In this document: one piece after another, positions 1-8,586 of the stretch
How the letters are laid out: each line of letters opens with the position of its first letter
Numbering within the stretch: position 1 is the first letter of the stretch
Assembly: GCA_030066455.1 (NCBI GenBank)
Contig: JASJBQ010000206.1
Span: 1-8,586 of the forward strand
Length of the DNA: 8,586 nucleotides
Reading direction: 5' to 3'
From: Desulfobacterales bacterium
Lineage (GTDB): Bacteria; Desulfobacterota; Desulfobacteria; Desulfobacterales; UBA5852
The notes under the pieces: generated by a model
Database searches by the model: none
What the model was told of the DNA's origin: nothing
Seen by the model: only the letters and a program-made list of their open reading frames with translations
Made by a program: the position numbers and the translations under genes

Positions 1-134
1 GCGCCGGCAAGATCATCATCGAAAACCTGACCCGCCTGGAGTCACTGATCGGCCAGACGTTTCAGCTGGCGTGCTTTCCTCTGAAGATCGCCGACGGAGA
101 CGGGTCACCCGTGCGCGCCGTGGCGATTCTATAA
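1..134 (+). CDS. Cyclase family protein (kynurenine formamidase-like), C-terminal fragment
   Basis: This is the 3' end of a gene whose start lies outside the window; the readable frame begins at base 3 and ends at TAA 132-134, leaving 43 residues. The fragment contains ENLTRLESLIG, then FPLKIADGDGSPVRAVAIL at the very end. The pattern 'ENL..L..L......F.LAC.PLKI..GDGSPVRAVA' is the usual C-terminus of the metal-dependent cyclase/arylformamidase family (PF04199 type). Members of that family hydrolyse N-formylkynurenine or related amides and esters. The metal-binding HxGTHxD motif would lie upstream and cannot be checked, so the substrate is unknown. The family call rests on the tail motif only. 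The next gene starts 132 bases later on the same strand, so co-transcription is possible but not shown. Confidence 0.75.
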   Translation, partial: AGKIIIENLTRLESLIGQTFQLACFPLKIADGDGSPVRAVAIL

Positions 135-266
135 AAGCAATCTCACCTTAAATCGCCCCCCCGGATGGCGGCGGGCCCCATATGGCGTGCCCGTTCAACC
201 GTCAATCTGGAATGGAGGGGCGCAAGACCGCATGGGCACCTGCGCGGATCGCCCGCAAGGAGAACG

Positions 267-1154
267 ATGGGGCCTGACATCTCCGAGCACCCCATCCGGA
301 TGGGGGACGGTACCCGTTCGGTGCTGACCGTTTTCAGGAACGAAACGTCGGCGCCGGTGGTGATCTGCATGCCGGCCATGGGTGTGCGTGCCGCGTTTTA
401 CGAACCGCTGGCATCCAATCTGTGCCTTCGCGGCCTGAACGTGGCGACGGCCGATCTCCGCGGGCTGGGCGCGAGTTCGGTGCGGGTCGGCCGTGGCACC
501 GATTTCGGCTACCACGACATGCTGACCCACGACTGGCCTGCCGTCCTCGATGCCGTGCACGAAGGGTTTCCCCCCAGCCGCACTTTTCTTCTCGGCCACA
601 GCCTGGGCGGCCAGCTGAGCGCGCTCTATGCCAGCCTTTTCCCGGAGCGGGTCGCCGGTCTGGTACTCGTGGCCTCATGCTCGGTTTACTACAAAGGCTG
701 GTCTTTCCCGGCCAATTGGGGGATATGGCTGGGCACCCAGACCGCCGGCCTGCTGGCCGCCCTGCTGGGCTATTTCCCGGGGCGTCGCGTCGGGTTCGGG
801 GGCACGGCCGCCCGCACGGTGATCCGCGACTGGGCCCGCAACACCCGCACCGGACGCTATGACCTGACCAACAGCCCCCATGATTTCGAAGCCCGACTGG
901 CGTCCCTGCGGCGGCCGGTGCTTGCGGTTTCGATTCCCGGCGACGGATTCGCCCCGCCCCGGGCCGTGGACAATCTCTGCCGCAAATTTCCCGAAGCTCC
1001 GCTCACCCGCTGGCATGTGCCGCCCGGTGAATTGGCACCCCAGGGTCTGGATCATTTCGGCTGGGTGCAACATTCGGGGCCAATTGCCGACAGGATCGCT
1101 GCATGGATGGCGACCATTCGGCCTTGCGGACACGAGCGCGCATCGAGTGGCTGA
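267..1154 (+). CDS. Alpha/beta hydrolase (serine hydrolase fold, COG4757-like)
   Basis: A 295-residue soluble protein with the alpha/beta hydrolase fold. The nucleophile elbow GHSLGG gives Ser112. Asp226, in PGDGFAPP after a beta strand, and His263, in LDHFGW, complete a plausible triad; an early strand reads VVICMPAMGV, followed by the ADLRGLGAS turn. The overall pattern resembles the 'predicted alpha/beta hydrolase' group COG4757, whose substrates are undefined. The start at 267 is chosen because AAGGAG at 257-262 sits four bases upstream; an in-frame ATG at 165 has no ribosome binding site and would add an arginine-rich, unconserved-looking extension. No signal peptide is seen, so it is probably cytoplasmic. 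The membrane methyltransferase gene follows within 20 bases, suggesting one transcript. Fold and catalytic residues are clear; the specific reaction is not. Confidence 0.88.
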   Translation: MGPDISEHPIRMGDGTRSVLTVFRNETSAPVVICMPAMGVRAAFYEPLASNLCLRGLNVATADLRGLGASSVRVGRGTDFGYHDMLTHDWPAVLDAVHEGFPPSRTFLLGHSLGGQLSALYASLFPERVAGLVLVASCSVYYKGWSFPANWGIWLGTQTAGLLAALLGYFPGRRVGFGGTAARTVIRDWARNTRTGRYDLTNSPHDFEARLASLRRPVLAVSIPGDGFAPPRAVDNLCRKFPEAPLTRWHVPPGELAPQGLDHFGWVQHSGPIADRIAAWMATIRPCGHERASSG

Positions 1155-1171
1155 GAAAACATTTACTCAGG

Positions 1172-1672
1172 ATGGATCAACGTCAGATGAATATCTCCGG
1201 TTTTCAGAAGATCTTCGGTGTAGGCCCGTCGGGCGCGCTGCTCAGCCTGATGCTGCTGGCCTTGCTGTGGGTGGTCGACGGGCTGGCCGGCCGACCCGCC
1301 ATCACGGCCCGTGCGGGCCTGCGCGACGCCGCGGCCCTGGTGCTCATTCTTTCCGGTGCCGCCTTACACGTCTGGTCCTTCGTGACACTGCGAAACTGGT
1401 GGCGCCATGACCGTCTGTGCACCCGGGGCCCGTTCCGTTTCGTGCGTCACCCCATGTACACGGCCTGGATCACACTGGTCGCCGGTGGGGCCGTGCTGGC
1501 GAGCAACTCATGGCTCATGCTCGCCGGTCCCGTTGGGCTTCACCTTCTCTGGCACCGCCTGGTGCCGCGGGAGGAGAAGATGATGGCAACCGTCTTCGGC
1601 GAGGCTTACCGGGAATATGCTGCCCGCACCGGCCGGTTTCTGCCGCGCTGGCGTCCGTCAGGACGAGCGTGA
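1172..1672 (+). CDS. Isoprenylcysteine carboxyl methyltransferase (ICMT/PEMT/NnrU)-like membrane protein
   Basis: A 166-residue integral membrane protein with about four hydrophobic segments (near residues 19-37, 53-72, 96-114 and 115-130). The C-terminal half carries the signature of the ICMT/phospholipid methyltransferase superfamily: LCTRGPFRFVRHPMY at 82-96, then EEKMM and FGEAYREYAARTGRFLPR at 134-159. In characterised relatives these residues form the S-adenosylmethionine pocket at the membrane face. Bacterial members have no prenylated-protein substrate; known ones act on lipids or small thiols (MddA methylates methanethiol), so the acceptor is open. The start is uncertain. ATG 1103 has AGGA seven bases upstream but overlaps the hydrolase gene by 52 bases; ATG 1172 and ATG 1187 avoid the overlap and still precede the first membrane segment. 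The 3' end overlaps the convergent selenoprotein gene by 15 bases. Confidence 0.85.
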   Translation: MDQRQMNISGFQKIFGVGPSGALLSLMLLALLWVVDGLAGRPAITARAGLRDAAALVLILSGAALHVWSFVTLRNWWRHDRLCTRGPFRFVRHPMYTAWITLVAGGAVLASNSWLMLAGPVGLHLLWHRLVPREEKMMATVFGEAYREYAARTGRFLPRWRPSGRA

Positions 1673-2449
1673 GTCGCCCGTCTTGGGCGGCGATGTCGCG
1701 GCCTGCCCGAAACCGAACAGCGCACGCTGTATGATGCGGGTGAGATAGACGGTCTGATCGGCGGTGAAATAGGCGCCCCGCCGGCGGTGGGTTTTACGGC
1801 GATAATCGCGGGCATGTTCTTCTGACCAGAAGAAGACGCTCTCCTTTCAGAAGTCGTCGATAATGTTCGGCGCCTCCAGTTCGTTTAGGGCGATGTCGGG
1901 CACGAACACGACGGGGCGGCAGCCTTCATCCCCCACGCCATAGTTCAGATCGCTGTCGATGTCGATTTGCATTGACCGGCCACAGTGGGCACACGTGGAA
2001 GCGACCCTGACCGCCAGTTTTTCGCCTCTAAGCCGCCCTTGCACGAAGGGCGTCGCGATAGCGTCTACGGCTCAGGCGGCATAAAGCCTTGCGCCCGTGC
2101 TGAAGGTCAGGGCGTGCGGTGTGGTTTCCACCGTTACCGGATAGGCCCAGGTCACTTCTCCGGCCGGATTGCGGAAGAGAAAGGTCATGCGGGCTTCGAG
2201 GTCGGCCAGCAGAGAAGCCACCTGTCGTTCGGGCAGTTCAAGTTCTGCGGCGATTGTTGCGGGTGGAAGGGGTCCCCCCAGGCGCGGCAGTTCACGTACG
2301 CTATAATGGTGTACCGCCCGGTGGTCCGGGGTCATGAAACCCATACCGGCCGCTATTCTGCCGCGGGCCCGGACGACCTGTTTTTCCCACAGAAAAGGCG
2401 GTACGGACAGCATCAAACGCCAGAAGCCGCTCATGAGTCGGTTGGCCAT
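1658..2449 (-). CDS. saoL: MerB-family organometallic lyase-like selenoprotein with two active-site selenocysteines (UGA at 2074-2072 and 1849-1847)
   Basis: Reading through two in-frame TGA codons gives one 263-residue protein. The N-terminal 90 residues form a winged-helix-like region (HHYSVRELPRLGG, then LPPATIAAELELPERQVASL). This is followed by WAYPVTVETTPHALTF and RLYAA-U126-AVD129AIATPF, matching MerB's ETPHRF and LYAWCALDTLIFP, so U126 sits at catalytic Cys96 and D129 at Asp99. STCAHCG aligns with the MerB segment holding Cys117. Then DDF-U201-KESVFFWSEEHA matches MerB FCCHVHFFAS, placing U201 at catalytic Cys159. MerB protonolyses carbon-mercury bonds; the substrate here is inferred to be an organometal. 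Each TGA is followed by a SECIS-type hairpin. AAGGA lies 10 bases before ATG 2449. Annotators would normally split the gene at the TGAs or call it a pseudogene. Two nonsense mutations hitting exactly the two catalytic Cys codons by chance is unlikely. The symbol saoL is from memory of an NCBI family name and is unverified. Confidence 0.88.
1817..1834 (-). promoter_or_regulatory. Candidate bacterial SECIS element for the second UGA (Sec201)
   Basis: On the minus strand, 12 bases after the TGA at 1849-1847, arm TTCTTCT (1834-1828), loop GGTC (1827-1824) and arm AGAAGAA (1823-1817) form a perfect 7-bp stem. The loop starts 19 bases after the UGA. Its GGUC sequence is like the GGUCU core of the well-known E. 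coli fdhF SECIS loop, which SelB recognises. The stem is encoded within the conserved FFWSEEH segment, so coding and RNA constraints coincide. Confidence 0.78.
2034..2052 (-). promoter_or_regulatory. Candidate bacterial SECIS element for the first UGA (Sec126)
   Basis: On the minus strand, 19 bases after the TGA at 2074-2072, arm CGCCCTT (2052-2046), loop CGTGC (2045-2041) and arm AAGGGCG (2040-2034) form a perfect 7-bp stem. The apical loop starts 26 bases after the UGA and has G at its second position. Both fit the usual bacterial SECIS rule: apical loop about 16-37 bases downstream, with a G among the first two loop bases for SelB contact. The hairpin lies inside coding sequence, over codons for TPFVQGR. 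Confidence 0.75.
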
Positions 2450-2583
2450 AATTAAATTTTCCTTTCCGCGACGGCCATCGAAAATCCCGCAATGCGCATG
2501 GGGTATTTCGGCTTAGGCCGCCTGTCGTTCGTTCTTTTCTCCACGTCCCGTTGAAAAAGAGATGGCATCATGCTGAATAGGAG

Positions 2584-2612
2584 GCTAAAGTGTGAAGCCG
2601 TAAACGGGTCAA
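2584..2612 (-). promoter_or_regulatory. Possible sigma-70 promoter for the MerB-like selenoprotein gene
   Basis: On the minus strand, TTGACC (2612-2607; five of six bases match the -35 consensus) is followed after 17 bases by TTTAGC (2589-2584), a poor -10 with three matches. It would leave a leader of roughly 130 bases before ATG 2449. The -35 is good and the -10 weak, so this is only a candidate. Confidence 0.25.
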
Positions 2613-2620
2613 GCGAAAAA

Positions 2621-2644
2621 TATCGATTGCCGTCGTGATCGATA
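2621..2644. promoter_or_regulatory. Dyad TATCGAT-N10-ATCGATA, candidate operator between divergent genes
   Basis: Perfect 7-base arms at 2621-2627 and 2638-2644 are separated by 10 bases, giving a 17-base centre-to-centre spacing typical of binding sites for dimeric repressors. It lies 41 bases before the MFS start codon and just upstream of the candidate minus-strand promoter, so one bound regulator could control both genes. No regulator gene is adjacent. The function is inferred only from symmetry and position. Confidence 0.35.
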
Positions 2645-2657
2645 CCCTGCATTTTTG

Positions 2658-2675
2658 GTCGCCAACCGTGGCGAC
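2658..2675 (+). promoter_or_regulatory. Hairpin abutting the MFS ribosome binding site
   Basis: GTCGCCA (2658-2664), loop ACCG, TGGCGAC (2669-2675) form a perfect 7-bp stem that ends one base before the GGAG Shine-Dalgarno at 2676-2679. An alternative smaller pairing, TTGG (2655-2658) with CCAA (2662-2665), would exclude it. It may modulate translation, or be an operator at DNA level. No known riboswitch class is recognised. Confidence 0.3.
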
Positions 2676-2684
2676 GGAGAATAA

Positions 2685-3920
2685 ATGGCAAACGATCTAA
2701 ACCCGGCGCTCAAGCTCGATGCCAGGAAGCCGCCGCCGTTTGTCCGACTCATGACCATTTGCTGTCTGGTGACCTTTGGTTGTTATTTTGCGGTGTTCAT
2801 GCGGCTGCCGGTGGTTCCGCTCTACGCCCGGGCACTGGGCATTTCGATTGCCGAAATCGGCCTGATCAACGCGGCCTTTTTTCTGATGGCCGGCCTGCTG
2901 TCGTTTCCGATGGGGCTTGTGGCCGACCGGTACGGCAGCAAGCCGGTGGCCGCCGCCGGTGTGCTCGTGCTGGCCGTGGCCGCCGGCCTGCTCTATTTCT
3001 GCACCACCTTTGCCCGGCTGACCGGGGCCTACCTGATGTTCGGGGCCGGGATTGCCGCCTTCGGTCCCACCATGATGGCGCTGGTGGCTCGGATTTCGCC
3101 GCCGACCCACCTGGGCCGCGCCTATGGCTGGTACACCACCGCCCTTTTCGGGGCCATGAGCCTGGGGCCGGCCCTGGGCGGCTACATGGCCGGCGGCTTC
3201 GGGTTCGTTCCGGTTTTCGTCACCATCACCGCCCTGCTGCTGGCCGACCTGGTCGGTCTGCTGCTCATACTGCCCGGGCCCGAGGAGGGAAGGGAAGCGG
3301 CCTCGGTGCCGCCGGCGGTTGGCGCCACGCTTAAAGGGCTTCTAAGCAACCGCACGGTCGTGGGCTGTTGGCTGGTGACGCTGGGGGCCTGCTTCGGGCT
3401 CGGGATGTTCACCAGTTTCATCCCCCTGCATGCCAGGGCGCAGGGATTGGCGGCCGGGCAGATCGGGCTTGTCTTTTTCGCTCAGGGGCTGGCCAACGGG
3501 CTTTCGCGGATTCCCTTCGGCTATCTCAGCGACAAGCTCGGACGGCGCCCACTCCTGGTGCTGATCGGCATGCTCGGCTTTGCTCTCTCCCTGGCGGGGC
3601 TGGCGGCGGCGGACCACAGGGCCGCCTTCATTTTGTGGGCGCTGGTGTCAGGTGCCAGCCTCGGACTGGCCTTTACCTCGGTGGGCGCTTTGATTGCCGC
3701 CTCCGTCGATGCCGACGCCCGCGGCGTCGCCATGGGGGGCTACAACACCTGCATCTACTGCGGCATGATGATCAGTTCCCTGTTCATGGGCGCCGTCATC
3801 GAGGCCACGGGGTATGCCTGGGGTTTTTATCTGACCGCCCTGATCAATCTGGGCTTCAGCGGGATTTTTATTCTGGCGATTCGGACCCCGAAATCCCGAA
3901 GCGGCCGGATGCCGCCTTGA
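2685..3920 (+). CDS. Major facilitator superfamily (MFS) transporter
   Basis: A 411-residue polytopic inner-membrane protein with about 12 hydrophobic segments and the internal duplication typical of the superfamily. The motif A loop GLVADRYGSKP is at residues 77-87, and its repeat in the second half, GYLSDKLGRRP, is at 279-289. GPALGGYMAG at 161-170 in the fifth membrane segment resembles the antiporter motif C. GGAG is five bases before ATG 2685. It is probably a proton-coupled exporter of the drug/metabolite efflux type, but the substrate cannot be read from sequence. Its divergent arrangement with the MerB-like selenoprotein gene, sharing a 235-base control region, suggests export of the lyase's substrate or product, or an unrelated drug; this is inference. 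Cys residues occur near the membrane (CCL at 26-28, NTCIYCG at 354-360), which is interesting for a possible thiophilic cargo. Confidence 0.9.
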   Translation: MANDLNPALKLDARKPPPFVRLMTICCLVTFGCYFAVFMRLPVVPLYARALGISIAEIGLINAAFFLMAGLLSFPMGLVADRYGSKPVAAAGVLVLAVAAGLLYFCTTFARLTGAYLMFGAGIAAFGPTMMALVARISPPTHLGRAYGWYTTALFGAMSLGPALGGYMAGGFGFVPVFVTITALLLADLVGLLLILPGPEEGREAASVPPAVGATLKGLLSNRTVVGCWLVTLGACFGLGMFTSFIPLHARAQGLAAGQIGLVFFAQGLANGLSRIPFGYLSDKLGRRPLLVLIGMLGFALSLAGLAAADHRAAFILWALVSGASLGLAFTSVGALIAASVDADARGVAMGGYNTCIYCGMMISSLFMGAVIEATGYAWGFYLTALINLGFSGIFILAIRTPKSRSGRMPP

Positions 3921-3928
3921 GGGCATCC
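3907..3928 (+). other. Stem-loop across the MFS stop codon
   Basis: GGATGCC (3907-3913) and GGCATCC (3922-3928) form a perfect 7-bp stem with an 8-base loop containing the TGA stop. No T-run follows, so it is not a standard intrinsic terminator; it may protect the 3' end or be incidental in GC-rich DNA. Confidence 0.3.
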
Positions 3929-4148
3929 ACCCTCGAGCAGGCCGCAAGGGCGGGGTTGCCAATACCCACATCAAGAAGGTAATACATTCTTGGCCTCGGG
4001 TCGCCACGCAAGAAATCGGACCGGCCGGATGCACGCCTCTGCCTATGTGAACGCCCAGGTTTGAAACCCGGCCGCAGACACCCACCAGAAGACTTGTGCC
4101 GGCATCGTTCGATGCCGTGGGCAGGAAAGATACAGGAACGCCTTCCAC
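3921..4148. other. 228-base intergenic spacer with no recognised gene; contains a palindrome at 4100-4117
   Basis: No convincing coding frame is seen in either direction. The most distinct element is an 8-bp inverted repeat CGGCATCG-TT-CGATGCCG (4100-4117). A short self-complementary segment, GGTTTGAAACC, lies near 4058-4068. The stretch looks more structured than a simple promoter region and could be the end of a degraded insertion sequence or a dispersed repeat, but no transposase piece or terminal repeat can be shown from this window. A promoter for the gene at 4149 is presumably within it; none is obvious. Confidence 0.35.
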
Positions 4149-4673
4149 ATGGAAATGAACGACCCGCATCCACCATCAGAACCGCCATCGCCCGCCGAGG
4201 TGCTCTTCGACTATGCCATCGACCGTGAAGACGTCAAATGGCTGATGGCGCAGTTGCACGTGGAAGCCGCTGTCAACCGGCATACGGTCGAGTACGAGTT
4301 GCAAATCCTCAAAATCATCAGTGTGGGGTGGAGCATTGCCTATCACCTCGAAAACGCACCGGCGAGGCAGCCGCTGCTGGAGGCTTTCTGGAATGCCGTA
4401 CAAACCTATGCCCAGAGCCTTTCACAGACCACCGAACTGATGATCGGGCAGGACATCGACTATTTCCTCACGCTGCGCGAGCGCCTGGATGCCTATCTGG
4501 CGGCCATGTCCGCCAGCAAGGAGAAAAACGACGCCGCCGCGGTCATCGGTCCCGCGTTTGCCGAGAAATGCGGCAACGCCGAAGACCTCTTCACCCGCAT
4601 GACCGGGGCCAAGCTGTTCATGTCGGTCGTCAGCCGGGTCAAGACCTATCTCGACGCGACATCCCCATCGTAA
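4149..4673 (+). CDS. Hypothetical protein, all-helical, 174 residues
   Basis: I do not recognise this family. The frame is 174 residues, starting at ATG 4149 with AGGAA at 4133-4137 (11 bases upstream, slightly long); ATG 4155 is an alternative start. After a proline-rich leader (PHPPSEPPSPAE) the protein is predicted by eye to be helical throughout, with amphipathic segments such as VEYELQILKIISVGWSIAYH (residues 47-66) and PLLEAFWNAVQTYAQSLSQT (74-93). No signal peptide, transmembrane segment, Cys pair or nucleotide-binding motif is visible. A central segment, MIGQDIDYFLTLRERLDAYL, is also helical. It is probably a cytoplasmic four-helix or larger bundle. It stands alone between a 228-base spacer and a convergent gene, so context gives no function. 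Stop codon is TAA at 4671-4673. Confidence 0.75.
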   Translation: MEMNDPHPPSEPPSPAEVLFDYAIDREDVKWLMAQLHVEAAVNRHTVEYELQILKIISVGWSIAYHLENAPARQPLLEAFWNAVQTYAQSLSQTTELMIGQDIDYFLTLRERLDAYLAAMSASKEKNDAAAVIGPAFAEKCGNAEDLFTRMTGAKLFMSVVSRVKTYLDATSPS

Positions 4674-4722
4674 AGGCACCGCCTTGCAAAGCGGGCGGCG
4701 ACGGATTGGCACGGCCGTGCGG

Positions 4723-4744
4723 TGGGGCTTGCATGCCTGCCCCA
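4723..4744. terminator. Weak candidate bidirectional hairpin between convergent genes
   Basis: TGGGGC (4723-4728) and GCCCCA (4739-4744) pair across a 10-base loop, in the 117-base gap between the convergent genes ending at 4673 and 4791. A second palindrome, GCACGGCCGTGC, lies at 4709-4720. Neither has a T-run on either strand, so intrinsic termination is doubtful. Confidence 0.2.
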
Positions 4745-4790
4745 TCGACGGGCGCATGGTCTTTGGCGATGCGGCCGGATGGCCGGGGGA

Positions 4791-6014
4791 TCATAGCGAC
4801 AGGGGACGTTTCTGGTTTTCGCGACGGCGGCGTTGGGCACGTTGCAGCGCCACGCCGATCACGCCCCCCAAGGTGTTGAGCAGCAGATCCAGCAACTGCG
4901 AGCTGCGGGAGGGGATCCAGGCCTGGGCCAGCTCGATTCCCAGGCTGAGCGCAAAGCACAGTCCCGCGCAGAACAGGAGCTCGCGGCGCGAGGCGGCTCG
5001 GCCGAAGTCGGCCCGCAGCGCGCTCACGAAAAAACCCAGGGGGACGAACCCCAGAAGATTGAGCATCACATCCTTCCAGAAATCGCCGTCCCAGCGCATA
5101 TCATCCCAAGGCAAATGAAGGATCTCCTTCTGCAGAATCCGCACGTTCGCAGGGATGATCAGGGACCGGGTATCGCCCATGCGGTTCAGGGCTTTTTGTC
5201 CCGGTACCTCATCGAAGAGGTAAAGCATGGCGGGCTCGGACGGCACCAACAGGGAAAAGTCACGCGTTTTTTTCCACAGCCTGAAGTGCTTGGCGATGGT
5301 CGCCGGCGCGAGGGCCCGCGTGTGGATGGCCAGGCCGAAAAGATCGCCGTTCCAGGAGTGGCGGGCGTAGACGGAATTGCCCACGACCAGGGTGGCGGGG
5401 CCGCGGAGGTTGGGTATATTCAGGGTCAGTTGGGTGGTGCGGGCGACCGGGCGGCCGTCGATGAAGATGCGACTGCCGTCGGCATCCGAGACCACGGTGA
5501 TCAAGCGTTCGACCCCGGCGGGCAGGGCGTTGTTCGCCGTGAGTCGCTTGAGCCCCATCCGGCCGCTGTAGTCGTTGCCGTGCATGACAACGAGCGACGA
5601 GCGCCACTGGCCGATCAGGAGCTGTTCGTCGTCACGGCCGCCGTGGAGCATCAGCAGGATCTGGAAGCGCTCGCGCTTCAAGGGCTCGGCCCGAACGGCC
5701 AGTTCGAATGCCAAGCCCGTTGCGGACGTGAGCGACGGCTCGGGCTTGACGCCGAAAGCCTTCCGGCAGTAGGCCATGGCGTAGTGCCCGAATGTCAGGC
5801 CGGCCCTGTCCGGGTGCCAGGTGACCTGGTTGTTCGTGGCGGTGCTATCAAACCGCAGCCCGAAGAACAGGATGACCAGAACCAGCACCGTGCTGATGCC
5901 GGCGAGGCCTCGCCTGGAAAGATAGCCTTTGGTCGCGATGAGCGTTACCTGTGGTTTGAGGTTTCCGTTAGAAAGGCGGTCGTCATTCCGATCGGGGTCG
6001 CCGCCGCCCCCCAT
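4791..6014 (-). CDS. LamG-like (concanavalin A-like) / VanZ-like fusion membrane protein
   Basis: A 407-residue protein with three parts. A short cytoplasmic leader and one transmembrane anchor (residues 36-53, AGISTVLVLVILFFGL) are followed by an extracytoplasmic domain (about 70-250) with the beta-sandwich pattern of LamG/concanavalin A-like domains: VVSDADGSRIFIDGRPVART, ATLVVGNS, and WNGDLFGLAIHTRALAPATI at 221-240. The C-terminal part (about 313-391) is VanZ-like: DVMLNLLGFVPLGFF, then a membrane segment to LGIELAQAWIPSRSSQLLDLLLN and TLGGVIGVAL. VanZ-type domains are of uncertain biochemistry; VanZ itself gives low-level teicoplanin resistance. A LamG domain suggests binding of polysaccharide or cell-surface glycan. 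A basic tail (RAQRRRREN) is likely cytoplasmic. ATG 6014 is the first in-frame start after a stop, but it lacks a visible ribosome binding site. Domain calls are solid; the role is not known. Confidence 0.85.
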   Translation of the reverse strand: MGGGGDPDRNDDRLSNGNLKPQVTLIATKGYLSRRGLAGISTVLVLVILFFGLRFDSTATNNQVTWHPDRAGLTFGHYAMAYCRKAFGVKPEPSLTSATGLAFELAVRAEPLKRERFQILLMLHGGRDDEQLLIGQWRSSLVVMHGNDYSGRMGLKRLTANNALPAGVERLITVVSDADGSRIFIDGRPVARTTQLTLNIPNLRGPATLVVGNSVYARHSWNGDLFGLAIHTRALAPATIAKHFRLWKKTRDFSLLVPSEPAMLYLFDEVPGQKALNRMGDTRSLIIPANVRILQKEILHLPWDDMRWDGDFWKDVMLNLLGFVPLGFFVSALRADFGRAASRRELLFCAGLCFALSLGIELAQAWIPSRSSQLLDLLLNTLGGVIGVALQRAQRRRRENQKRPLSL

Positions 6015-6299
6015 CGGTCGTCACGGCGTTTGCCGCCGGCGCATCGATACACCACCAAGGGCAACATAATACGGTTCGGCCCCCAGCGTAAAGCGCTGGG
6101 GGCGCGGGGTGGCTTCGCACATGAATTTTGTTGACGGTAAAACGAAGGCGGCGCTCATATCACGGCGTGTGCCGATCCTTACGTCGGGGCGGGCCCCCGG
6201 TTGGCCGGACGATCTCTGGGCGGGCCGATATGCGGGATGGCCCGCGAGGCGCCCGGCCGGATTTGGGCCTCCCGATTGCCGCGTGCGCAACACCGGCCC
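6015..6299. other. 285-base spacer without a supported gene
   Basis: Open frames exist here on both strands but have GC-driven, arginine/proline/glycine-rich composition and no ribosome binding site, so none is called. The spacer holds the strong hairpin at 6079-6103 (listed separately) and a second inverted repeat, GCGGGCC (6220-6226) with GGCCCGC (6239-6245), downstream of the small gene on the minus strand. The second could slow transcription but has no T-run. Confidence 0.4.
6079..6103. repeat. Perfect 10-bp inverted repeat (strong hairpin)
   Basis: GCCCCCAGCG (6079-6088), loop TAAAG (6089-6093), CGCTGGGGGC (6094-6103). It lies 65 bases upstream of the VanZ-like gene start, so on the minus strand it would fold in the leader or act as a block to read-through from the small gene. 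No T-run follows on either strand, so it is not a canonical terminator. Confidence 0.55.
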
Positions 6300-6500
6300 T
6301 TACTCGCCCTCTCCGCCGACCGCGAATCCGCTGGGGCCCAGACCGGTGGATGAAGATGTGCCCGCGATTTTGGCAAGGTAGGTATCGCCCAGTTTTTTAA
6401 TGTGGCTGTGGACGTTGTCGAAGTAGTTGTAGTGGATCTGCTCCTCCTCGATGACTTTTTTGCGGCGCTGCGTTTTTGCTGCGGGGGCTGCTTTCGGCAT
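6300..6500 (-). CDS. Small basic hypothetical protein, 66 residues
   Basis: The start is set by a perfect Shine-Dalgarno, AAGGAGG at 6513-6507, six bases before ATG 6500; the longer in-frame start at 6542 lacks one. The protein has an Ala/Lys/Arg-rich N-terminus (MPKAAPAAKTQRRKK), a charged and aromatic middle (VIEEEQIHYNYFDNVHSHIKKLGDTYLAKI) likely to be helical, and a Ser/Gly-rich flexible tail (GTSSSTGLGPSGFAVGGEGE). No membrane segment, Cys or His metal site is evident beyond two His at residues 23 and 31. I do not recognise the family. It lies downstream of the sigma-54 activator gene on the same strand, with a 222-base gap, so it probably has its own promoter, possibly in 6520-6720. The basic N-terminus could bind nucleic acid, but that is speculation. 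Confidence 0.7.
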   Translation of the reverse strand: MPKAAPAAKTQRRKKVIEEEQIHYNYFDNVHSHIKKLGDTYLAKIAGTSSSTGLGPSGFAVGGEGE

Positions 6501-6722
6501 GGGAAGCCTCCTTGAATCAGTTGACTGTTTTGCGGCCAACAAAGGCAGGTTGAGTCTAAATAGGGATTACCGCCTTGCGGCGCAAGTCCAAACAGGCGCT
6601 TTTTTGGCAGCGGGGAAATTTACCCATCGTTGCGAACGAGGAGGCGATCCCTCCCTGTCGTATGCGGGACCAATCGCAGCGGATCAAGTTGCGTGTCCGG
6701 CGCCGTTCAGAAAGGCCAGGAT

Positions 6723-8267
6723 CTACATTTTGGTTTTGCGGCCGTAGGGGATACGAAGTTTCTGCATGCGCTTGCGCAGGGTCGAGGGGTGGATTTGCAG
6801 ACGGACCGCCGCACCGCTGGGGCCCTCCACCCGGCCCTGGCACATGTCCAAGACGCGGCGGATGTGACGGGCCGTCACCGTATCGAGGGCCAGCGGTTCC
6901 GCGCCCGCATTTTTCGTTGGTTCATCCGGCGGAGGCCGCTTGGGGATCGGCGTTCCGATATCGGTGATATGCAACACCGGTCCGCGATTGAGGATCAGCG
7001 CCCGTTCGACGGCGTTTTCCAGCTCCCGCACGTTTCCGGGCCAGGGGTAGCGCATCAGCCGGTCCATGGCTTCCGGCGTGATCGAAGGGGTTCGGTGCCG
7101 CTTCATCTCGCTGACCTTTTTTTGGATGAAGTGCTGGACCAGGGCCGGGATGTCGGCCGGCCGGCGGCGCAGGGGCGGTATGGCGACGGGGAAGACCCGC
7201 AGACGGAAATAAAGGTCTTCCCGGAAATCGCCCTGCATGAGCATGGTTTCGAGATTTCGATGGGTGGCGGCAATGATGCGGATGTCCGCTTTGATCGTCC
7301 GGGTGCCGCCCACGCGGACGATTTCTCTTTCCTGCAAGACGCGCAGGAGGCGCACCTGGGCTTCGGGAGGCAGTTCGCCCACCTCGTCCAGAAAGAGGGT
7401 GCCGCCCTGCGCGCGCTCGATGAGTCCGCGTTTCTGCGAGAGGGCACCGGTGAAGGCACCTTTTTCGTGGCCGAAGAGTTCGCTGTCCATCAGGGTGGGG
7501 GGGATGGCGCCGCAGTTGACCTTGATAAACGGCCCCGGACGTCTGGGGGATGTGTTGTGGATGGCGTTGGCCACGACCTCCTTGCCCGTGCCGGTTTCGC
7601 CCAGCAGCAGAACCGGGCTGTCCAGCGGAGCCACCTGACGGACCTGCTCCATCACGCCGCGCAGCCCGAAATCGGCCCCGATCACGTTTTCACCGGCGAT
7701 GCGCCGCAGTTCGTCGTGCAAATAGCGGTTGTCGTCGGCCAGAAGGTCGCGCAGGGCGGAAAGCTCCCGGAAGCGCAGGCTGTTGGTCAGCGCCACCGAA
7801 AAGGGTTTGTTCAGAAGCCGCATCAGGCGCATGTGCTCGCGGGTGAAAGGGGCCTGCCCGTCGCCGAACACGGACACGATGCCCAGAAACGTGCGCTCCA
7901 GGACCAGATCCATGACCAGGGCCGGCTGGTCCAGGGCACCCAGTTCGCGCGCCACCGGTTCCGTGACGGGGTCGTCGCCCAAACGCATGATCAGGCGGAC
8001 CCGGATCGAGCGCTGTTCCTCGACCTGGCGGCGGCCTTCTTCCGAGAGTTGGGAACGCACGCTGAGGGCCCGACTGCCTTCTTGCGTCGCATTGGCCACC
8101 GTCTCGACGATTCCTCGCTCCCGGTCGTAGACATGGAAGCTCATCTGGCTGGCCGGAATGAACATGCGGATGTACTGCAGGCAGTGGTGCAGGGCTTTTT
8201 CGATTTCCAGGCTGCCGCAGATGCGCAGGGTGGCTTCGCGGAAAAAAACGGTTTCGTCGACGGGCAC
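6723..8267 (-). CDS. Sigma-54-dependent transcriptional activator (GAF - AAA+ - Fis HTH)
   Basis: A 514-residue bacterial enhancer-binding protein. Residues about 1-165 look like a GAF-type sensory domain (LEIEKALHHCLQYIRMFIPA, then VLERTFLGIVSVFGDGQAPF), so it probably senses a small molecule rather than a phosphoryl group; no receiver Asp motif is seen. The AAA+ domain (about 195-430) has Walker A GETGTGKE (223-230), the sigma-54 contact loop GAFTGA (270-275), Walker B GGTLFLDEVGELP (288-300), FREDLYFRL with the arginine finger region (348-356) and PWPGNVRELENAVERAL (408-424). A Fis-type helix-turn-helix closes the protein (EGPSGAAVRLQIHPSTLRKR, 481-500). Translation starts at GTG 8267-8265 with GAGGTGAG three bases upstream. 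It is transcribed divergently from the gene at 8490, whose upstream region has a -24/-12 promoter, so that gene is its likely target. The ligand is unknown. Confidence 0.95.
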   Translation of the reverse strand: MPVDETVFFREATLRICGSLEIEKALHHCLQYIRMFIPASQMSFHVYDRERGIVETVANATQEGSRALSVRSQLSEEGRRQVEEQRSIRVRLIMRLGDDPVTEPVARELGALDQPALVMDLVLERTFLGIVSVFGDGQAPFTREHMRLMRLLNKPFSVALTNSLRFRELSALRDLLADDNRYLHDELRRIAGENVIGADFGLRGVMEQVRQVAPLDSPVLLLGETGTGKEVVANAIHNTSPRRPGPFIKVNCGAIPPTLMDSELFGHEKGAFTGALSQKRGLIERAQGGTLFLDEVGELPPEAQVRLLRVLQEREIVRVGGTRTIKADIRIIAATHRNLETMLMQGDFREDLYFRLRVFPVAIPPLRRRPADIPALVQHFIQKKVSEMKRHRTPSITPEAMDRLMRYPWPGNVRELENAVERALILNRGPVLHITDIGTPIPKRPPPDEPTKNAGAEPLALDTVTARHIRRVLDMCQGRVEGPSGAAVRLQIHPSTLRKRMQKLRIPYGRKTKM

Positions 8268-8285
8268 GGGCTCACCTCAGCACAT

Positions 8286-8347
8286 AAACTGTCAAATAAG
8301 GTAGTAAAAGATAAAACTGCCATATAATACAGTAAAAACTGTCAAAT
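8286..8347. repeat. Three copies of AAACTGYCAWAT, candidate activator-binding sites
   Basis: AAACTGTCAAAT occurs exactly at 8286-8297 and 8336-8347, 50 bases apart, with a near copy AAACTGCCATAT at 8314-8325. The last exact copy overlaps an inverted repeat, ACAGT-AAAA-ACTGT (8329-8342). The cluster lies about 60-120 bases upstream of the sigma-54 promoter, the usual place for enhancer sites, and also covers the activator gene's own promoter, which would allow autoregulation. Confidence 0.5.
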
Positions 8348-8352
8348 GGCAA
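8324..8352 (-). promoter_or_regulatory. Sigma-70-type promoter for the sigma-54 activator gene
   Basis: On the minus strand, TTGCCA (8352-8347; five of six -35 matches), a 17-base spacer and TATTAT (8329-8324; five of six -10 matches). Transcription would begin near 8317, about 50 bases before the GTG start. The repeats listed at 8286-8347 overlap the spacer, the -10 and the leader. Confidence 0.55.
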
Positions 8353-8384
8353 AGCAAATATTGGCCGATAATTACAAATTATTG

Positions 8385-8397
8385 AAAATATTTGATA
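8385..8397 (-). promoter_or_regulatory. IHF-like site between enhancer repeats and sigma-54 promoter
   Basis: On the minus strand, TATCAA-ATAT-TT-T matches the IHF consensus WATCAANNNNTTR at all positions but the last. It lies in AT-rich DNA between the repeat cluster and the -24/-12 promoter, where IHF bending normally assists sigma-54 activation. AT-richness raises the chance of a random match. Confidence 0.35.
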
Positions 8398-8405
8398 ATA
8401 GATAT

Positions 8406-8421
8406 TGGTACAATATGTGCT
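8406..8421 (+). promoter_or_regulatory. Sigma-54 (-24/-12) promoter for the gene at 8490
   Basis: TGGTACAATATGTGCT matches the consensus TGGCACN5TTGCW at 10 of 12 defined positions, with the invariant GG (8407-8408) and GC (8419-8420) exactly 10 bases apart. Transcription would start near 8432, about 58 bases before ATG 8490. The divergent sigma-54 activator gene strongly supports the call. Confidence 0.7.
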
Positions 8422-8489
8422 TTGATGGCAAGTGTTTATATCGTCAAACGGTCTGTATTCGCAACCCGAGCGGTCAGAAGGACAAACCC

Positions 8490-8586
8490 ATGCCCCGCCA
8501 TCAACCATCGACGCCTCAGGAATGGATGGAAATGATCCGTATCCGTATGGATCCGTCCCGACGCAACGGTGTCGAGGGGCAGATCA
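8490..8586 (+). CDS. Unrecognised protein, N-terminal 32 residues only
   Basis: The gene runs off the right edge. It starts at ATG 8490 with AAGGA at 8478-8482, seven bases upstream, and the first residues include PQEWMEMIRIRMDPSRRNG. No signal peptide or known motif is visible in so short a piece. Its position behind a -24/-12 promoter and opposite a sigma-54 activator gene marks it as the first gene of an operon controlled by that activator. Composition returns from AT-rich to GC-rich exactly at the start codon region, supporting real coding. Function cannot be assigned. Confidence 0.65.
   Translation, partial: MPRHQPSTPQEWMEMIRIRMDPSRRNGVEGQI

Follow-up and report, generated by a model that had tools for sequence, protein, structure and literature searches.

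The window analysed here is a stretch of 8,586 nucleotides from a Desulfobacterales bacterium (assembly GCA_030066455.1, contig JASJBQ010000206.1, positions 1 to 8,586). Its reverse strand carries a gene of the MerB family in which the codons of both catalytic cysteines are UGA. Judged from the sequence, these codons would be read as selenocysteine (Sec) by means of two hairpins resembling the selenocysteine insertion sequence (SECIS), and the enzyme is likely to be a diselenol organomercurial lyase. MerB is the classical methylmercury-cleaving enzyme and relies on two cysteines, while an aspartate of the enzyme protonates the carbon. Selenium binds mercury more strongly than sulfur does. A sequence-only reading of the window had proposed a protein of the MerB family in which Sec replaces both catalytic Cys residues, and this proposal is now supported by homologous loci, by the Sec machinery of most genomes carrying the gene and by the selection acting on it.

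The double-UGA gene and its relatives

The features of the gene and its surroundings are, in window coordinates:

1658..2449, reverse strand: double-UGA MerB-family gene (read-through frame, Pfam, homologous loci)
2072..2074, reverse strand: TGA codon 126, predicted Sec, matching MerB Cys96 (frame, loci, profile alignment)
2063..2065, reverse strand: Asp129 codon, matching MerB Asp99 (loci, profile alignment)
1847..1849, reverse strand: TGA codon 201, predicted Sec, matching MerB Cys159 (frame, loci, profile alignment)
2035..2051, reverse strand: SECIS-like hairpin 1, GCCCTT-CGTGC-AAGGGC, loop starting 26 nt past TGA 126
1817..1834, reverse strand: SECIS-like hairpin 2, TTCTTCT-GGTC-AGAAGAA, loop starting 19 nt past TGA 201
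2460..2467, reverse strand: possible ribosome-binding site, purine-rich GGAAAGGA 5' of the ATG (our reading of the sequence)
2685..3920, forward strand: divergent major facilitator superfamily (MFS) transporter adjoining the gene, also present in the related loci L001 and L002 (Pfam, locus comparison)

Read through from the ATG at 2449 to 1658, the frame gives 263 residues. Three of its codons are TGA: 126 and 201 inside the frame, and the terminal codon 264 (1658-1660). The 3' end shares 15 bases with a convergent open reading frame (ORF) at 1103-1672. Under the standard code the ORF list holds the first 125 residues and a separate 65-residue ORF with a GTG start between the two TGA codons, which is the fragmentation that the sequence-only reading had expected of standard annotation. 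That the two TGA codons join MerB-like segments, as had also been claimed, is borne out by the Pfam MerB domain (PF03243), which covers residues 106-237 in one frame across both codons with 50.8 bits at a gathering score of 27. The same domain scores over cut-off in 45 of the 49 genomes carrying the gene (carriers) that were searched.

An alignment of the family profile with a MerB chain places residue 126 at Cys96, residue 129 at Asp99 and residue 201 at Cys159, in agreement with the correspondence drawn from the sequence alone. The MerB chain in this alignment is 3f2g, a C160S mutant, and we counted the MerB numbering from the alignment. The predicted fold is that of MerB, with an identity of 14-22% to MerB chains over the fold.

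To collect relatives at the DNA level, genome contigs of GTDB r220 were searched with degenerate patterns built on three conserved peptides, none of which includes a TGA site. This gave 128 relatives, of which the best 80 were kept as loci. Both sites are TGA in 79 of these 80 loci, and L072 (826-1569), with TGC followed by TGA, is the sole locus with Cys at site 1. The Asp129 codon is kept in 80/80, and TGG occurs at neither site. In 81 genes, followed to 40 codons beyond site 2 (19,331 codons), there is one extra in-frame TGA and one TAA/TAG, both in L032 close to its 3' end. The conservation of both TGA sites is far beyond chance. Six-frame profile sampling, independent of the DNA patterns, gave 15 full-length members in 395 genomes from the phylum of the centre genome G001, and 2 in 301 genomes from the phylum of G034 (Chloroflexota by title), all of them double-TGA. 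Within the family of the closest genome, two of six genomes have the gene. Among viral contigs there were 62 pattern matches and no relative, and plasmids gave two weak matches only, to ordinary MerB at 26-27% identity.

The segments after the TGA codons are under purifying selection. Compared with L001, dN/dS is 0.19 before, 0.26 between and 0.13 after the two codons, and compared with L002 it is 0.22, 0.27 and 0.13, respectively. Against the more distant L010, for which synonymous change is near saturation, the middle segment reaches up to 0.51. In a maximum-likelihood tree of 81 proteins the window protein groups with L001 and L002 (100/99). By title the tree rows include Thermodesulfobacteriota groups, Deltaproteobacteria, Chloroflexota, Acidobacteriota, Acidimicrobiaceae and others; these phylum labels are submitter titles, and they are intermixed on the tree.

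Of 61 matches in protein databases, 39 carry Trp at both sites, 13 lack a residue at both, five have Cys at site 1 without a site 2 residue, and four are other cases, two of these having Ser at site 1. The Trp residues probably reflect translation of TGA under a different code on short contigs. Proteins derived from JGI (P0002-P0031 and others) show Trp at both Sec sites and could mislead family building. Cys homologues at the TGA positions, which the sequence-only reading had named as something to look for, exist in L072, in the five database proteins (site 1), in the metagenome protein P0039 (site 2) and in MerB itself, and all 80 loci carry Sec or Cys codons at both sites.

Hairpins and selenocysteine machinery

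The two hairpins have stems of 6 and 7 pairs and loops of 5 and 4 nt with a G within the first two places, and both agree with the bacterial SECIS model as quoted in the parts of PMC13188914 available to us. Loop 1 is identical in 81/81 genes and loop 2 in 80/81. The full stem is present at site 1 in 71/81 genes versus 4.5% of synonymous shuffles, and at site 2 in 80/81 versus 33%. Codon conservation peaks at the hairpins, with Pro CCC at 99% (expected 30%), Gly GGG at 100% (25%) and Ser TCA at 89% (13%). Most other tested codons are near expectation or moderately raised, and a few outside the hairpins are conserved as well, such as two Ser AGC codons, one at position +40 past site 1 and the other at -6 ahead of site 2. 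Some stem pairs change on both sides: pair 1 of site 1 is GC in 64 genes, TA in 5, CG in 1, GT in 1 and unpaired in 10, and at site 2 CG replaces TA in 4 genes at pair 4 and in 5 genes at pair 7. An Rfam scan of the window gave no match at gathering scores, and an ARAGORN scan of the window found no tRNA.

The machinery for Sec was searched in the 49 carriers and in 14 control genomes. SelB is over cut-off in 41/49 carriers versus 2/14 controls, and tRNA-Sec is over the gathering score in 41/49 carriers (39 at >=60 bits by our count) versus 5/14 controls. In G001 and G002, the genomes of L001 and L002, selA is present (606 and 601 bits), and so is selD (364 and 354 bits), each selD gene having one in-frame TGA. 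Two tRNA-Sec of G001 pass the gathering score. Hence selB and selC are found in most carriers and selA and selD in these two genomes, while selB is over cut-off in neither of the two. In two Chloroflexota genomes tRNA-Sec adjoins a gene for a MerA-like flavoprotein (G028:C15 near 56000, G041:C5 near 179700).

Proposed mechanism, alternatives and genomic context

The protein very probably contains two Sec residues. Given these, a MerB-like carbon-metal lyase is, by analogy with MerB, more likely than not, and for such a lyase mercury is quite probably the natural substrate, being the likeliest one because of the homology to MerB. At codons 126 and 201, Sec would be brought in by SelB bound to the respective hairpin. 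With R-Hg+, most likely methylmercury, as substrate, one selenolate would attack the mercury and the second would join it. Proton transfer from Asp129 to the carbon would release methane and leave Hg(II) between the two selenols. We infer both the lyase activity and the higher metal affinity of a diselenol site from this chemistry. Since MerA is over cut-off in just 1/49 carriers (G046, the genome of L072 with its Cys at site 1), thiol, sulfide or selenide would presumably take over the Hg(II) by exchange.

Several results weigh against this account. The window protein falls far below the cut-offs of the NCBIfam MerB equivalog models (47.9 of 193 bits for NF009710 and 44.1 of 200 bits for NF033555). 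Two metagenome proteins have Ser at site 1, P0039 with Cys at site 2 and P0058 with no site 2 residue. Because 5/14 controls also pass, weak tRNA-Sec matches mean little; G002 lacks a tRNA-Sec over the gathering score, and SelB is missing at cut-off from G001 and G002, although such absences, in draft genomes for which completeness figures are lacking, may be gaps. The folding energy of the 45 nt past each TGA was compared with synonymous-codon shuffles, and the signal is weak at site 1 (mean z -0.88, with p <=0.05 reached by 14% of genes) and nil at site 2 (mean z -0.02, 2% of genes; controls -0.10, 4%). Free energy alone does not show a SECIS element; it is the codon-level conservation together with the stem counts that supports one. 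Clustering of neighbours at 81 loci (10 neighbours Pfam-scanned) revealed no shared mer genes, and the neighbours vary. HgcA is over cut-off in neither G001 nor G002, and hgcA lies close to the gene in 1/80 loci. On chemical grounds, the grip of two selenols on Hg(II) may be too tight for turnover.

One alternative is a double-Sec MerB homologue whose substrate is a carbon compound of another soft metal or metalloid (tin, lead, arsenic, selenium or tellurium), or which holds the metal without turnover. What the family has in common with MerB is just the fold and the catalytic positions, there is no mer operon, MerA is nearly absent from the carriers, and the nearest relatives are without HgcA over cut-off. 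Still, the carbon-protonating Asp of MerB is kept throughout the loci, where pure binding would need no such Asp, and HgcA is enriched among carriers, if weakly controlled; we regard this alternative as rather unlikely. A role as a partner of HgcAB, handling Hg(II) or methylmercury for methylation by delivery or product removal rather than acting as a free detoxification lyase, would fit the 23/49 carriers with HgcA over cut-off and the single locus, L037, where hgcA precedes the gene on the same strand at a distance of about 2.6 kb. With 26/49 carriers lacking HgcA over cut-off, proximity confined to that locus, and 105 HgcA genomes of the phylum sample without the double-UGA gene, such a role is very improbable.

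The fragments produced by standard gene calling, and the Trp at both sites in 39 of the 61 database matches, could suggest a pseudogene, a sequencing error or the assignment of TGA to Trp. These explanations are refuted, leaving them practically no probability: the TGA pair recurs in 79/80 loci with TGC at site 1 in the last, the hairpins are conserved, the segments are under purifying selection, and five database proteins have Cys at site 1. Moreover, other ORFs of the window terminate in TGA (249-1154, 1103-1672, 2685-3920), and the double-UGA gene itself has four TGG codons. Membership in SaoL, of the Sec-assisted organometallic (SAO) system, had been suggested from the sequence alone and did not hold up. 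The SaoL model NF040728 matches residues 67-166 with 44.1 bits at a cut-off of 140, four other members of the family score 30.4-45.4 bits, and the canonical MerB L081 gets a similar 45.3 bits. No Sao family is among the NCBIfam matches listed for seven window neighbours, no genome-wide search having been made, and SaoL as tabulated in the part of PMC13188914 seen has a single Sec in a CU motif, in place of two Sec codons 75 codons apart. We consider it very improbable that the window protein is SaoL.

A conserved operon was sought by neighbour clustering at the 81 loci and nothing common to most was found. The commonest cluster, a MarR-type gene, lies upstream in 8 loci (at 49-901 bp), and the next, a MerR-superfamily gene, lies just upstream in 6 loci, with one member of each Pfam-scanned. 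L001 and L002, loci from Desulfobacterales metagenome-assembled genomes, are syntenic with the window, and their hydrolase, MFS, ORF174, VanZ and sigma-54 genes have approximately 75-88% identity to it. The 174-residue ORF (window 4149-4673, forward strand) has 82-87% identity in L001 and L002 and is without a Pfam or NCBIfam match.

In L037, a chromosome record, positions 2354-6738 hold the double-TGA merB together with hgcA, a ferredoxin ORF (likely hgcB) and a gene of hemerythrin type, all on one strand, hgcA and the ferredoxin ORF being upstream of merB. A search with the HgcA of L037 found no other locus. The HgcA of the 23 carriers occurs in nearly all cases without MerA. Among the genomes of the phylum sample, 8/15 carriers have HgcA over cut-off versus 105/380 others (p = 0.035 one-sided, 0.041 two-sided), a test which ignores kinship, counts the centre genome G001 among the 15 carriers and takes both scans as covering the same 395 genomes. 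For Chloroflexota the figures are 4/10 carriers versus 1/299, nine of the ten having been chosen as gene carriers, and in the random sample alone 0/2 versus 1/299. The link of carriers with HgcA is suggestive only and not established. Two frames for MerA-like flavoproteins, each interrupted by one in-frame TGA (G008:C99:72361-73749 and G019:C120:4391-5722), are possible further selenoproteins, and the first shares its contig with HgcA at a distance of about 3 kb.

A broader proposition, which we hold tentatively and as the less probable case, is a large hidden family of diselenol methylmercury lyases, independent of MerA, in anaerobes including many methylators that carry hgcA. If this is true, cells making methylmercury could also break it. 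Double-UGA genes are easily missed because UGA splits them in ordinary gene calling, and surveys relying on intact MerB reading frames would overlook them. The family may also matter for how organisms classed as merB-negative degrade methylmercury under anoxic conditions. According to the part of a 2021 survey (PMC8261052) available to us, no genome encoding only MerB codes for HgcAB; when read-through genes are included, HgcA is over cut-off in 23/49 carriers, nearly all of them lacking MerA over cut-off.

Comparison with known systems

A literature search found no MerB with Sec at both catalytic sites, which does not by itself show absence from print. There is no MerB in the main texts of PMC2398784 and PMC5029168, and none in PMC8318568. 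HgcA and HgcB, of which Sec forms are listed in the portion of the 2026 review PMC13188914 consulted, are unrelated proteins whose mercury-carbon chemistry in anaerobes the window family would share. SaoL (NF040728) is, like the window protein, a MerB-related selenoprotein, and is the one such protein in the table seen of that review; the MerB-like selenoprotein of a 2022 review (PMC9312934, seen in part) has the same accession. In that table the single Sec of SaoL stands in a CU motif, whereas neither of the two Sec codons of the window gene adjoins a Cys.

A second double-TGA MerB group exists in the same carrier genomes, and five members were read (L086-L090, from G022, G013, G018, G019 and G005). 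They have TGA at both catalytic positions, each followed by its own predicted SECIS-like hairpin. The group differs from the window family in a TGA spacing of 65 codons, a different N-terminal half and, in our reading, Glu at the MerB Asp99 position three residues past the first Sec codon. The two members scanned score far below the NCBIfam cut-offs. More matches to this group exist among the PF03243 matches of the carriers. In the MerB-like genes L084 (G044) and L085 (G025), site 1 is Cys and site 2 is TGA; a hairpin comes after this TGA, again with the GGTC loop. Sec at MerB catalytic positions is therefore wider than the window family. One carrier, G004, also has the canonical MerB L081, over the NCBIfam cut-off with 204 bits. 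Natural Sec/Sec and Cys/Sec forms make the role of selenium versus sulfur in mercury-carbon cleavage directly testable.

Compared with MerB itself (PF03243; structures 3f0o and 3f2f, and MerB2 5c17), which has the catalytic Cys pair, the window family has UGA at both positions, stands as a lone gene and misses the NCBIfam MerB cut-offs. It has the second Cys of a CxxC at what we read as the MerB Cys117 position in 71/81 genes. Both MerB cysteines have apparently been swapped for selenium, and both swaps are kept across genomes labelled as many phyla.
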